From Legionellales bacterium (GTDB taxonomy: Bacteria; Pseudomonadota; Gammaproteobacteria; Comchoanobacterales; Comchoanobacteraceae), in the NCBI GenBank assembly GCA_002690495.1, contig NZEV01000021.1, forward strand, positions 1 to 33,618: a stretch of DNA of 33,618 bases. Reading direction: 5' to 3'. The notes below the pieces were generated by a model. The model had not been told where the DNA came from and ran no database searches. It saw only the letters and a list, made by a program, of their open reading frames with translations. Numbering within the stretch: position 1 is the stretch's first letter; each line of letters begins with the position of its first letter. The translations under genes and the position numbers were made by a program. Of this stretch, positions 10,016 to 30,738 are shown piece after piece.

Positions 10016-11491
10016 CTACTTTCGATACAATTGATATCTAGACAGTATGTTTACGAATAGGATACAAAGTGCAAGGATATATATGATCATAAAATCACCA
10101 TAATAACAAATTGGTGTGCTGCCTTTGCGAGTTAGCATAGTTTCAGAACCAACATCTCGAGACTGTGCCTGTAAAGAATTAATTTTTCTACCATGGTGAT
10201 CGATCCAAATTGAAGCACCATAATTATTAGCAATGGTAATTGGTTTTTCAACAGAACGGGCTAAAAATTTTGCAGCTAGATCATACTGATGATTAAAACT
10301 AGAATCTAAGAACCAGCTTAAATCGCTCACCACAAAAAATGCATTAACCTCTTTTCCAACATGATGGGAAAGCTGTGGAAATAAAAGCTCATAACAAATT
10401 AAATTTCCAATCCTCCCATACTTAGAATTAAAAATAACATCATTTCCAGAACCTTTTTCAAGTCCAATATGTGGTAAATGTAATATTTTTAAAAGCCATG
10501 TGAAATAATCTGGTATAGTTTCATTAAATTGAGCCAAATAATACTTTTGATGAACATGTAAAATCTCACCATCAGAGTTAAAAGTGACAAGTAGATTCTT
10601 AGGTAAATGATTTGTATCTTTAGGTAAGCCAAAAACACCTCCAACTAAAAGCTGATTTGGTGTACCTAAACTTATCAAATGATCATTGAGTACAAATGAG
10701 CCCTCAGGCCAAATGATAAAATGCGATGATGGTAATTGTTTAATTGACATAAAAATATATCTTACAACATCACTGTCTATTGAGTTTATAAAAATATCTT
10801 TGCGCGTATCCGTTTGGATAACGCCAATTTGTAATGGTGCCTTAGCTTTAGTCCAATGAATATGATGTAAAATGAGCGTCGTTAAACTAAATAAAGAGAT
10901 TAGTAATATTGACTGAAGCTTGTTTCTATTTAAGTCTTTTATTTTAAGAAATAAGTAAGTCATCAAAAAGGTCATACCATAAACACCAATGATAGGTATA
11001 TAACCATCTAATACCGTATTGATTGTCAGATAGCCCATCATTAAAAATGGAAAGCCACCTAATGCTTGTGTTCTCACAAACTCACACAGTGTAATAATCG
11101 CAGCTAAAATAAAAGTTTCATACTGTGCATTTTTAAAAAAGCGATTAAATAGGAATATTCCTAATACCATGATTGATGACAAATAAACACAGAATAAGCC
11201 AATGACTAGATTAGATAATAAAGAGGGCAGTCCTCCAAAATCTCTCAGTGGGTGAATCAACCAGTGACAACCGATTAAGAAAAAAGAAAAATAGAAAATA
11301 AAAAATTGTCTTGTATTGCGACAATTATTTTTACTTACGATGTTATTTAAAAAGAGGAAATATGATAGTAAGGACAAAAAATAAAGCTTGCTATACAAAA
11401 AGCCTAAAGAAGTACAAATCCCTAAAATAAATACAACAAGATCCTTTAACGTGATAAATCTAAAAAACAGATCATTTTTTTCTGCTCTCAT
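10016..11491 (-). CDS. lnt: Apolipoprotein N-acyltransferase
   Basis: Inner-membrane enzyme adding the third acyl chain to lipoproteins. It has 491 residues: about six to eight N-terminal membrane helices (to about residue 210), a periplasmic nitrilase-like domain (about 220-460) and a final helix. The catalytic triad is visible: Glu263 (IIWPEGSF), Lys316 (HQKYYLAQF) and Cys366 (NLICYELLFP). FNETIPDY is also typical. The start overlaps corC by 20 bases, the usual corC-lnt coupling. It would process the lipoproteins encoded in this window (LptE, the 38- and 55-residue lipoproteins, the transglycosylase). Confidence 0.95.
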   Translation of the reverse strand: MRAEKNDLFFRFITLKDLVVFILGICTSLGFLYSKLYFLSLLSYFLFLNNIVSKNNCRNTRQFFIFYFSFFLIGCHWLIHPLRDFGGLPSLLSNLVIGLFCVYLSSIMVLGIFLFNRFFKNAQYETFILAAIITLCEFVRTQALGGFPFLMMGYLTINTVLDGYIPIIGVYGMTFLMTYLFLKIKDLNRNKLQSILLISLFSLTTLILHHIHWTKAKAPLQIGVIQTDTRKDIFINSIDSDVVRYIFMSIKQLPSSHFIIWPEGSFVLNDHLISLGTPNQLLVGGVFGLPKDTNHLPKNLLVTFNSDGEILHVHQKYYLAQFNETIPDYFTWLLKILHLPHIGLEKGSGNDVIFNSKYGRIGNLICYELLFPQLSHHVGKEVNAFFVVSDLSWFLDSSFNHQYDLAAKFLARSVEKPITIANNYGASIWIDHHGRKINSLQAQSRDVGSETMLTRKGSTPICYYGDFMIIYILALCILFVNILSRYQLYRK

Positions 11492-15048: not shown

Positions 15049-15165
15049 CTACTTACCGTATCTACTTGGCTTGTCACAACCTGATAATGAATCATAACCA
15101 GGTACGCTTGAACAACCAACTAGAGTAAATAGTGCACCCGCGATTAATAATGTAAATAACTTCAT
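15049..15165 (-). CDS. Tiny lipoprotein (38 residues), unknown function
   Basis: Short gene with a complete lipoprotein signal: MKLFTLLIAGALFTLVGC, with lipobox LVGC and Cys18 as lipidation site. The mature part is only 21 residues (CSSVPGYDSLSGCDKPSRYG plus K) and has a second cysteine, Cys30. The ribosome binding site GGAGG lies 5 bases before the ATG, the best in the window, and a stable hairpin follows the stop, so the gene looks real and well expressed. It lies 40 bases after the MFS gene. I do not recognise the family; a small outer-membrane or periplasmic-facing anchor of entericidin-like scale is only a guess. Confidence 0.8.
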   Translation of the reverse strand: MKLFTLLIAGALFTLVGCSSVPGYDSLSGCDKPSRYGK

Positions 15166-26810: not shown

Positions 26811-27410
26811 ATGATTATTAAGTTAATACACATTTTTACTTTTTTGTTAACTCTTCAATGTACTTATGCAGATTCAGCATGGGCTAAGCTTGATCATTTT
26901 AAAACTCAATCTAAGTTGATCGCTAGTTTTAAAATTGTTAACTACGATAGCGATCATCAGATTTATGATCAACAAACAGGCCGCTTTTTTTATCACCCAC
27001 AATATGGCAGTAAATGGGTTGCTGAAGATCCATACAAACAAACCACATGGATTAATAAAAAAAGTGTTACTATTTATGATGTTCCGCTGAATCAAGTCAC
27101 TATTAAACGATTTACTGCAGTCGATTATGATTTAATTGCCAGTCTTCTCTCGTCAGACATGAAAGAAATTAAAAAAAACTACACCACTGTTTCTAGCTCA
27201 GCTAAAGAAATTCATCTTAAACCAAAATCTACAACAAGCACGATGAATGAAATCATTATCAACTTTAATAACCAATCAATCCCTATTAAAGTTCAAGTCA
27301 TTGATAACATCGGATATAGTTTTAAAATGACTTTGAAGCCGACCGGTAAAGAACCAATACAATCTGATTTTGAAATCCGTTATCCTAAAAATGTTGAGAT
27401 CATTCAATGA
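26811..27410 (+). CDS. lolA: Outer-membrane lipoprotein carrier LolA
   Basis: Periplasmic chaperone carrying lipoproteins from LolCDE to LolB. It has 199 residues with a signal peptide (hydrophobic 4-17, probable cleavage after CTYA at about 20). The beta-rich body includes QTGRFFYHPQYGSKWVAEDPYKQTTW, a recognisable version of the LolA G.F...P..fRW...PY.q..v motif (the segment is residues 55-80). Sequence is divergent but position between ftsK and serS is the standard one. AAAGGAG lies about 14 bases before the ATG and GAGG directly before it. rarA, usually between lolA and serS, is missing. It overlaps serS by 4 bases. Confidence 0.88.
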   Translation: MIIKLIHIFTFLLTLQCTYADSAWAKLDHFKTQSKLIASFKIVNYDSDHQIYDQQTGRFFYHPQYGSKWVAEDPYKQTTWINKKSVTIYDVPLNQVTIKRFTAVDYDLIASLLSSDMKEIKKNYTTVSSSAKEIHLKPKSTTSTMNEIIINFNNQSIPIKVQVIDNIGYSFKMTLKPTGKEPIQSDFEIRYPKNVEIIQ

Positions 27411-28672
27411 TAGATATTCAGCTTATTAGACAACACTTAGAGACGACAAAGGACAACTTGTCTTTTCGTGGTGTGAAACTGGACTTTAATCATCTTCTTG
27501 AATTAGATGAGGAATGTAAAAAAAGTTTAATTGAAAAACAATCGCTTGAAATGGAACGTAATCAAATCTCCAAGCAGATTGGCGTTTTAAAAAAAGATCA
27601 ACAAAATGTTGATTCATTAATGTCTCAAGTAGATCAAATTAACCAGACATTAAAATCAACAATATCAAAATATAACGCATCGAAAAATGCCCTTGATCAG
27701 TTACTATCCTCTATTCCAAATCTTTCTCATCCCTCTGTTCCCAAAGGCTCGGATGAACAAGATAATGTGGTCATACAAACAGTTAGAGAAAATCAGTGTA
27801 AACAATCTAAAGTAGATCATATTCAAATTGGTCAAATATTCTCTGGAATGGATTTTGATTTAGCTTCAAAGTTATCTCAATCAAGGTTTGTATTATTAAG
27901 TGGTCAAATTGCCAGATTGCACAGAGCAATCATCCAAATGATGTTAGATGTGCATACCCGAAAAAATGATTATAAAGAATACTATACGCCTGTTTTAGTG
28001 AACCTAAATAGTATGTATCATACTGGACAATTACCAAAATTTTCTGACGACCAATTTATTTTAGAGGATGATCAATTAGCTTTGATTCCAACCGCAGAAG
28101 TCCCTCTCACTAATTTAGTCGCAAATACGATTATTGATCCCAAATCTCTGCCGTTAAAATATACAGCTCACACGCCTTGTTTTAGACGTGAGGCTGGTTC
28201 TTATGGAAAAGATACTCGCGGCATGATGAGACAACATCAATTTGACAAGGTAGAGTTAGTGTGGATTATTCACCCTAATGAAGCTGATGCTGCATTTGAT
28301 CAGTTGGTCAATGATGCTGTATCTATTCTAGATTTACTTGAATTACCCTATAGGAAAGTCATGTTGTGTACAGGTGATCTTGGATTTAGCGCATGTAGAA
28401 CGATTGATCTCGAGGTTTGGATTCCAAGCCAAAATACATTCCGAGAAATTTCATCATGTAGTCATTGCGGGGATTTCCAGGCTAGACGAATGAAGGCTAG
28501 ATTTAAGGAAGATGGTAAATCAAAACTGGTACATACTTTAAATGGATCAGGGTTAGCCATTGGTAGAACACTGATTGCGATTATGGAGAATTATTTTGAT
28601 GGTGAATGCATTCACATCCCTAAAAACCTCCAAACTTATCTGGATAATCTAGATGTTCTCAAACCAGAATAA
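27407..28672 (+). CDS. serS: Seryl-tRNA synthetase
   Basis: Charges tRNA-Ser and is also needed for selenocysteine if present. It has 421 residues: N-terminal antiparallel coiled coil (about 30-100) and class II core with motif 2 CFRREAGSYGKDTRG (about 259-273) and motif 3 NGSGLAIGRTLIAIMENY. TAEVPLTN is the serine/ATP-site signature. The ATG overlaps the lolA stop (ATGA) and the 3' end overlaps dapA by 20 bases. Confidence 0.97.
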   Translation: MIDIQLIRQHLETTKDNLSFRGVKLDFNHLLELDEECKKSLIEKQSLEMERNQISKQIGVLKKDQQNVDSLMSQVDQINQTLKSTISKYNASKNALDQLLSSIPNLSHPSVPKGSDEQDNVVIQTVRENQCKQSKVDHIQIGQIFSGMDFDLASKLSQSRFVLLSGQIARLHRAIIQMMLDVHTRKNDYKEYYTPVLVNLNSMYHTGQLPKFSDDQFILEDDQLALIPTAEVPLTNLVANTIIDPKSLPLKYTAHTPCFRREAGSYGKDTRGMMRQHQFDKVELVWIIHPNEADAAFDQLVNDAVSILDLLELPYRKVMLCTGDLGFSACRTIDLEVWIPSQNTFREISSCSHCGDFQARRMKARFKEDGKSKLVHTLNGSGLAIGRTLIAIMENYFDGECIHIPKNLQTYLDNLDVLKPE

Positions 28673-29498
28673 ATCAGTAATTACAGCGTTAGTCACACCA
28701 TTTAAACAAGACCATTCAATTGACTATCATTCTTTATTTTCTTTACTCGACCATCAATTAGCACATGATATTGATGGTTTAGTACTACTAGGCACAACAG
28801 GCGAATCCCCAACATTAACTCCTCATGAGAAGATCGATTTAATAAAAAAAACAGTACATCGCGTTAATCATCAATGTCCTATATTAATTGGTACTGGCTC
28901 TAATGCAACTGCATTTACAGTTGAGATGACTAAGATTGCTAAAGAAGAGGGGGCCTCTGGTGCACTCATCGTCACCCCTTATTATAATAATCCATGTCCT
29001 GAAGAAATCTTTGATCATTACGAATGTATCAATGATTCAACACAGTTTCCATTCATGCTTTATCATGTTCCCTCTAGAACCAATGCCAAACTCACTGATT
29101 CAGTTGTTCGACGTATACTTGACCTAAAATATTGTATTGGATTTAAAGATGCATCTGTCAATTTAAAATGGCTTGAAACAATACAAACAGCTAATGATTT
29201 ATTTTTATCTGGTGATGATTTATCTGCTTTTAATTATTGTCAAATAGGCGGGCAGGGGGTAATTTCTGTCATCTCAAACGCCTATCCAAAACTTACCAAG
29301 CAATACATTAATCATGGTGACTCTACACTGATTGATATTCTTCAAGCAATATCCTGTCATGTAAATCCAGTGCCAATCAAATATTTACTCAAACACATGA
29401 GGTTGATACAACATGACGCTGTTCGCGCGCCTTTAAAAACGTTAAACAGCAATCAAAACAAGCAAAATATTCAAGACTTAATAGGAGAAATAATATGA
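28653..29498 (+). CDS. dapA: 4-hydroxy-tetrahydrodipicolinate synthase
   Basis: First committed step to diaminopimelate and lysine, condensing pyruvate with aspartate semialdehyde. TIM barrel of 281 residues. The Schiff-base lysine is Lys165 (GFKDAS). The pyruvate site is GTTGE (Thr48, Thr49), and the proton relay includes Tyr111 (PYYNNP) and Tyr137 in LYHVPSRT (commonly LYNVPGRT), with Arg142 for the aspartate semialdehyde. It overlaps serS by 20 bases and the next lipoprotein gene by 4 bases. It supplies DAP for the cell wall built by MreBCD. Confidence 0.96.
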   Translation: MFSNQNKSVITALVTPFKQDHSIDYHSLFSLLDHQLAHDIDGLVLLGTTGESPTLTPHEKIDLIKKTVHRVNHQCPILIGTGSNATAFTVEMTKIAKEEGASGALIVTPYYNNPCPEEIFDHYECINDSTQFPFMLYHVPSRTNAKLTDSVVRRILDLKYCIGFKDASVNLKWLETIQTANDLFLSGDDLSAFNYCQIGGQGVISVISNAYPKLTKQYINHGDSTLIDILQAISCHVNPVPIKYLLKHMRLIQHDAVRAPLKTLNSNQNKQNIQDLIGEII

Positions 29499-29662
29499 AA
29501 ATATATATTTTAGCTTTATCTTCACTGCTAGTGGGATGTGTTACAACACACAGTGAATTAACACCGAGAATCGAAAAAGCGCTGCATAGTCAACAACTAC
29601 TTACTTTAAACCAAGATCAAAGTTATAGTATTGATGATCAATATGATGTGCCAACTGTGTAG
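29495..29662 (+). CDS. 55-residue lipoprotein in the bamC position (possible minimal BamC)
   Basis: Starts with ATG overlapping the dapA stop (ATGA) and AGGAG about 10 bases upstream. The signal is MKIYILALSSLLVGC with Cys15 as lipidation site. The mature tail is 41 residues. In E. coli and relatives dapA is followed by bamC, whose lipidated unstructured N-terminal segment binds BamD; the tail here (RIEKAL...LLTLNQ...YDVP) resembles that segment's Y.eA..l..L..p.g...P....Y.IP pattern. Both BamC helix-grip domains are absent. I infer a BamC reduced to its BamD-binding tail; chance similarity is possible. It overlaps the convergent cation efflux gene by 25 bases. Confidence 0.75.
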   Translation: MKIYILALSSLLVGCVTTHSELTPRIEKALHSQQLLTLNQDQSYSIDDQYDVPTV

Positions 29663-30738
29663 TAATATTTAAAGAGTACCTGCATGCCATCTAATGCAGC
29701 TATTTCCTCTCTTTGAGACATTTCATTTTTCATTAACACAATGACTTCAATAGTTGGTTTAAGATAAAAAATATGTATATGACCAATATCCTTGAAAAAT
29801 GTTTTTTCTTTTAGCCATTGTTCGATCTTATCTCGATCAGGTAATGCAATGAGGTGATGATCATCATATGCACAATACCCTAACTGTATTAAAACATCAT
29901 GAATTTTTGAGTTATGTTCCTTGAGTTTTGTCTCAATTTTTTTTGTAATCAAAGATGCTTCAGATGCTGATAAATGTGCATTCGTGCGTAAATGAGCATC
30001 AATAAATATTTTTCCTGCCATCAACCGAGTTCTTAACTGCACGATGTCTTGAACTTGCTTGAAATCAAGCATGACCATTTTAATCTCTTGCTTAGTCGCT
30101 TCGCTCACACCTGTATCTATCAGTTCATTTAAACCCTCAATAATTAAGTTTGCACCAAGATGAATGATCATCATACTGACAATCAATGCTGCAATAGAAT
30201 CAATCCAAGGGTAACCGTATATGGCACCAAATGAACCAACTAGCACAATACAACTTGATAGAGAATCACTCCGGTGATGATAAGCATTAGAGATCAATAA
30301 ATTTGAATGAATTTTTTTACCTGCCCTAATGGTATAAAAATAGATTAATTCATTAAATACAATTGAAATTAATGCCGTAATAATGACATATATACTTAAC
30401 TGTCCAGGATGATGATAAAAATTGATGATGGCTTCAAATGCAAATACAGCACCAACAATCACTAAAAAAAGTGATAGTAATATCATCACCAATGTTTCGA
30501 TTCTCTGATGACCATAAGGGTGGTTTTCATCTGGTGGCAAACTCCCTATTGATGCTCCCCAATATACAAAACCATCAGTCAATAAATCCCCAAATGAATG
30601 AATACCATCTACGATTAATGCTTTTGAATAACCTATATTACCAATAAATATTTTTATACATGATAAGAATAAATTGATGAGGGCACTGATCAAAGTGACT
30701 TGTTGGGCAATTTTTAATTTATTTTCTTTAGCATTCAT
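29638..30738 (-). CDS. Cation diffusion facilitator, zinc-type
   Basis: CDF-family proton-coupled metal exporter of 366 residues with six membrane helices (about 15-35, 38-58, 82-104, 114-136, 158-176, 180-202) and a cytoplasmic tail longer than usual (about 160 residues, two alpha/beta units). Metal site residues are His47-xxx-Asp51 (IHSFGD) in helix 2 and His154-xxx-Asp158 (YHHRSDS) in helix 5. The HD-HD pattern is that of zinc/cadmium carriers, unlike DD-HD of FieF. HPYGHQR (73-79) is conserved. It overlaps the permease upstream by 11 bases. Confidence 0.88.
   Translation of the reverse strand: MNAKENKLKIAQQVTLISALINLFLSCIKIFIGNIGYSKALIVDGIHSFGDLLTDGFVYWGASIGSLPPDENHPYGHQRIETLVMILLSLFLVIVGAVFAFEAIINFYHHPGQLSIYVIITALISIVFNELIYFYTIRAGKKIHSNLLISNAYHHRSDSLSSCIVLVGSFGAIYGYPWIDSIAALIVSMMIIHLGANLIIEGLNELIDTGVSEATKQEIKMVMLDFKQVQDIVQLRTRLMAGKIFIDAHLRTNAHLSASEASLITKKIETKLKEHNSKIHDVLIQLGYCAYDDHHLIALPDRDKIEQWLKEKTFFKDIGHIHIFYLKPTIEVIVLMKNEMSQREEIAALDGMQVLFKYYYTVGTSY

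Follow-up and report, generated by a model that had tools for sequence, protein, structure and literature searches.

BamC (NlpB/DapX; PF06804, PRK11679) has been called the most mysterious of the BAM lipoproteins, and deleting it from E. coli has little effect (PMC13067283). According to a 2012 survey (Anwari et al.), all beta- and gammaproteobacteria possess BamC, and the helix-grip motifs are conserved throughout (PMC3359395). In cryo-EM structures, BamC residues 32-85 form a lasso that runs along and contacts BamD, and the globular domains are mobile (PMC5056442). Alphaproteobacteria have BamF (DUF3035), a lipoprotein with a disordered N-terminus; a motif there, which BamC also has, is the proposed point of binding to the BAM complex (PMC3359395). 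Here we analyze a gene for a very small lipoprotein that lies directly after dapA in the window, the whole stretch of 33,618 nucleotides.

A small lipoprotein gene in the bamC position

The predicted product of the gene consists of MKIYILALSSLLVG followed by CVTTHSELTPRIEKALHSQQLLTLNQDQSYSIDDQYDVPTV, with signal peptide cleavage between the two parts leaving a mature chain of 41 residues, including the lipidated Cys15 (codon 29537-29539). The initial annotation had described a 55-residue lipoprotein that starts within the dapA stop and has a 41-residue mature tail with a Y-x-V-P-like end. Both descriptions stand, as the ATG and the dapA stop share ATGA (29495-29498), a strong ribosome binding site precedes the start, and the tail closes with Y-D-V-P. 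Residue +2 is Val, not Asp, and is thus compatible with outer-membrane sorting under the established Lol rule. From the motif and this rule, we infer that the protein is lipidated and located in the outer membrane. As a check on chance, a strict lipobox-type signal was found in 2 of the 95 window ORFs of 40-130 aa, this gene among them. The 41-residue peptide would be disordered on its own. A 491-aa ORF at 10016-11491 reads as Lnt. The window also encodes a second very small lipoprotein (about 38 aa), MKLFTLLIAGALFTLVGCSSVPGYDSLSGCDKPSRYGK, at 15049-15165 on the minus strand, between miaB-like and MFS-type transporter genes.

We characterized the position of the gene relative to BamC loci in other genomes. 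In 52 of 52 BamC loci tested, the gene immediately upstream, in the same orientation, is dapA; a Pfam search supplied 22 of these loci and a lasso search 30, and some genomes were represented in both. A lipoprotein gene in the slot after dapA is thus read as bamC by default, and the position of the window gene strongly suggests bamC, in agreement with the earlier proposal that it occupies the usual bamC site. Among 84,980 species genomes scanned, the best matches to the dapA of the window show 35-40% identity.

Table 1 Features of the locus and related genes in the window
Feature	Position	Strand	Basis or remark
lolA (PF03548)	26811..27410	+	outer-membrane lipoprotein transport present in this genome
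dapA (PF00701), overlapping the lipoprotein start by 4 nt	28653..29498	+	constant upstream neighbour of bamC in loci tested
Ribosome binding site AGGAG, 7 nt 5' of the ATG	29483..29487	+	direct reading
Lasso-only BamC candidate, 55-aa lipoprotein	29495..29662	+	mature chain of 41 residues
Signal peptide II, lipobox LVGC	29495..29539	+	direct reading
Tail core, KALHSQQLLTLNQDQSYSIDDQYDVPTV region, with L-x-L and closing Y-D-V-P	29582..29659	+	aligned to BamC lasso positions
Cation-efflux gene, convergent, 3' end overlapping the lipoprotein gene by 25 bp	29638..30738	-	second neighbour of the lipoprotein gene

Possible relatedness of the tail to BamC and the BAM setting

The initial annotation had likened the tail to the N-terminal segment of BamC. 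Taken singly, this resemblance is weak and not significant. The window tail scores 2.7 bits against the canonical lasso profile, a score reached by 69 of 1897 shuffles (about 4%), and 0.8 bits against a profile of the lasso-only BamCs described below, which 1513 of 5000 shuffles (30%) reach. Of the blocks found in typical lassos, D-Y-L-x-A and P-L-x-[IV]-P-P are absent from the tail, as is the final L-x-P-P. Among family relatives, the G001 and G007 proteins score singly at levels reached by about 4-5% of shuffles each, and the G009 protein alone gives 10.4 bits, reached by 0 of 5000. The window sequence (genome G000) was also aligned with those of G001, G007 and G009 without reference to BamC before scoring. 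The resulting pooled profile reached 13.9 when compared with the lasso-only set and 12.1 when compared with canonical BamC, and both scores lie above 200 of 200 column shuffles. When only the window and G001 sequences were pooled, 1 of 200 column shuffles reached the canonical score and 6 of 200 the lasso-only score.

In G001, the sister species, a gene for a 51-aa lipoprotein likewise overlaps dapA by 4 nt and has its own Shine-Dalgarno site; its product matches the window protein at E 3.6e-4 within the G001 genome. Apart from this sister version, the window protein is the shortest of the BamC-like set. The two tails are 35% identical, compared with 49% for dapA, and keep the pattern L-x-L..Q.Q.Y..D..Y.VP, with the sister tail ending in Y-L-V-P. 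Since the downstream genes differ between the two genomes, the short length is common to both species rather than the accident of one rearrangement. In G007, the order is dapA, a 72-aa lipoprotein and tRNA-Ser, identical to that of clear lasso-only BamCs. In the neighbouring genus (G002), the lipoprotein is gone and dapA abuts an efflux gene of the same kind as that in the window. As to conservation of the dapA-lipoprotein pair, which had been put forward as a check, the pair is kept in the sister species, and no such gene follows dapA in 5 of the 11 family members having a dapA locus.

Other members of the family vary at this position. G003, G004, G006 and G012 contain neither a lipoprotein after dapA nor a BamE match, which suggests joint loss of BAM accessories. 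In G005 and G013, the dapA neighbour (L031:870-1370 and L032:2427-2942) is a secreted protein of 167-172 aa with an L-P-P motif and no lipobox; these proteins also have a C-terminal domain, whose kinship to BamC is unproven. We did not count the extra domains of G009, G005 and G013 as proven helix-grip intermediates, as 3-12% of shuffles reach their scores.

Searches of the window genome (1.16 Mb, 94% complete) for a full BamC elsewhere, a check that the initial annotation had named together with BamA and BamD, detected none. PF06804 had no matches in this genome, nor in those of 13 family relatives, and a profile built from the family's own longer dapA neighbours found no BamC in this genome. 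The 55-aa window protein itself has no Pfam or NCBIfam BamC match and contains no helix-grip domains, which are the main content of PF06804. BamA (583 bits), BamD (adjoining rluD) and BamE are all present.

Taken together, the position, the sister copy, the pooled profile, the failure to detect a BamC domain anywhere else in the genome, and the related short loci give good support to a domain-less BamC, an identity that is likely though not proven. The gene probably specifies a BamC reduced, through loss of both helix-grip domains, to the lipidated N-terminal lasso, a putative BamD-binding peptide. As suggested by the lipobox, residue +2 and the presence of LolA, signal peptidase II would cleave the precursor and the Lol system would move the lipoprotein to the outer membrane. 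There, the 41-residue chain may lie along BamD, ending at the Y-x-V-P anchor point, and the tail could hold or stiffen the BamA-BamD-BamE assembly in a stabilizing role.

The BamD of the window genome (279 aa; G000:C4:28504-29343; L060:4505-5344, minus strand) lacks a lipobox Cys and is extended at length at its N-terminus, features that set it apart from the BamD of most relatives. As read from the DNA adjoining rluD, it starts with an ordinary signal peptide, MILTIPKLILKALILFSVLHNASADN..., and carries about 40 extra residues before the repeats. One possibility, which extends the domain-less BamC reading and does not exclude it, is that BamD has lost its own lipid in this genus and the lipidated BamC tail serves as its separate anchor. 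We regard this as a suggestive lead, though a doubtful one. The plain signal peptide of BamD fits the idea, as does G009, which pairs a lipidated BamC-like protein with an unlipidated BamD, and genomes with lipidated BamD mostly have no lipidated BamC (G002, G003, G005, G012 and G013). However, both proteins are lipidated in G007 and neither in G006, the association is not significant among the 9 genomes readable for both (Fisher one-sided p about 0.23, calculated by hand), and BamE and BamA could hold BamD as well. No BamD turned up in the 73% complete genome of the sister species. If the anchor idea is true, labour would be divided such that the BamC lasso peptide, beyond being a leftover contact, would act as the lipid tail that holds BamD in the membrane.

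An unrelated small outer-membrane lipoprotein that came to occupy the slot after loss of bamC would account for the non-significant similarity of the single sequence, and small lipoproteins are common, with the one of about 38 aa in the window as a second example. We consider such a replacement unlikely, as the pooled profile exceeds all 200 shuffles, the slot is the bamC position in all loci tested, and G007 and G009 tie the window gene to BamC. A decaying bamC remnant devoid of function would be in keeping with the small genome and the complete loss of the gene in G002, but is very improbable given that the sister gene retains near-equal length, lipobox, start overlap and Shine-Dalgarno site despite a different downstream gene, and that the tail pattern is conserved at 35% identity, with dapA at 49%.

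Lasso-only BamCs in other gammaproteobacteria

To the probable domain-less BamC of the window can be added a set of similarly built genes. Domain-less, lasso-only BamCs of about 70-120 aa, directly after dapA and often before tRNA-Ser, were found in two MAGs and in no fewer than 13 other genomes, which represent 9 gammaproteobacterial families. In the census, a lasso profile was run over 370 gammaproteobacterial genomes, 247 of which gave a match, and 14 short-frame loci were read. In 13 of them, the lasso or a short tail is the last part encoded, and the 14th (G295) is cut by the contig end. The 13 loci fall into families f145, f28 (two), f55 (two), f68, f109, f122, f31 (three), f11 and f51. 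dapA is upstream in 12 of the 13, the exception (G067) sitting near a contig end, and tRNA-Ser is directly downstream in 7. Two of the 13, G023 and G043, were also searched with PF06804 and gave no match.

The census profile included known BamCs, so the BamC similarity of its members arises partly by selection. The shared dapA neighbour and the two MAGs (L090 and L138), which were found via dapA, constitute the independent evidence. The MAGs encode lipoproteins of 76 and 85 aa with a full lasso and nothing beyond it, followed by tRNA-Ser. The order dapA, lasso-only bamC, tRNA-Ser(CGA) was seen in several families (L188, L189, L190, L192, L196-L198, L090, L138 and L028), and provides a handle for finding more such short genes.

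We further compared the lasso-only proteins with solved structures. A profile of 14 of them matches the solved BamC 9pxg_C (E 5.4e-9) and aligns along the BamC chains 9h84_C (67 residues) and 5ayw_C (56 residues), the matched stretch being the E. coli lasso. Against the NCBIfam BamC model (345 positions), L138 aligns over positions 8-85 with E 0.0016, far under the cut-off. Since the matched stretch is the lasso and the globular domains are mobile in cryo-EM, the lasso-only proteins end about where ordered BamC ends.

Longer and lasso-only forms both occur within f28 and within f122, which suggests repeated loss. Genome reduction is not the general cause, since G241, a 3.66-Mb single-contig genome, has a lasso-only BamC. 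The window protein is probably an extreme member of this recurrent class. The earlier view of a BAM accessory shrunk to its contact peptide is thus supported as to the domain-less form, but its reading as a one-off is not, as the form recurs in at least 9 other families. Our literature and family searches found no paper or database family describing a lasso-only BamC. The class, a BamC variant without the domains by which BamC gets recognized, is apparently undescribed, and because standard BamC models miss these genes, inventories of BAM components undercount BamC.

Comparison with BamC and BamF

BamF, which occurs in alphaproteobacteria only, is a longer protein than that of the window, and its gene adjoins lspA. 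The window gene adjoins dapA and a cation-efflux gene, and its product has no Pfam match, so that membership in BamF is not indicated.

With BamC, the window protein shares a gene position directly after dapA, the features of an outer-membrane-type lipoprotein, an extended N-terminal segment with Y-x-[VI]-P, and the presence of BamA, BamD and BamE alongside. It differs in having no helix-grip domain, in its 41 mature residues compared to about 320 in E. coli, and in the eroded blocks of its lasso. Close counterparts are the lasso-only BamCs (for example L090, 76 aa; L138, 85 aa; G157, 85 aa; G043, 78 aa), which likewise combine a dapA neighbour, a lipobox and a lasso with no folded domain. These proteins keep D-Y-L-x-A, P-L-x-[IV]-P-P-G, Y-P-[IV]-P and the final L-x-P-P, whereas the window protein keeps part of this series and stops earlier. 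The lasso-only forms contradict the helix-grip conservation reported for BamC (PMC3359395). They suggest repeated retention of the BamD-binding segment while the domains were dropped, which argues for the lasso as the core function that is conserved, and makes the lasso-only BamCs natural constructs for testing the long-unclear job of BamC.
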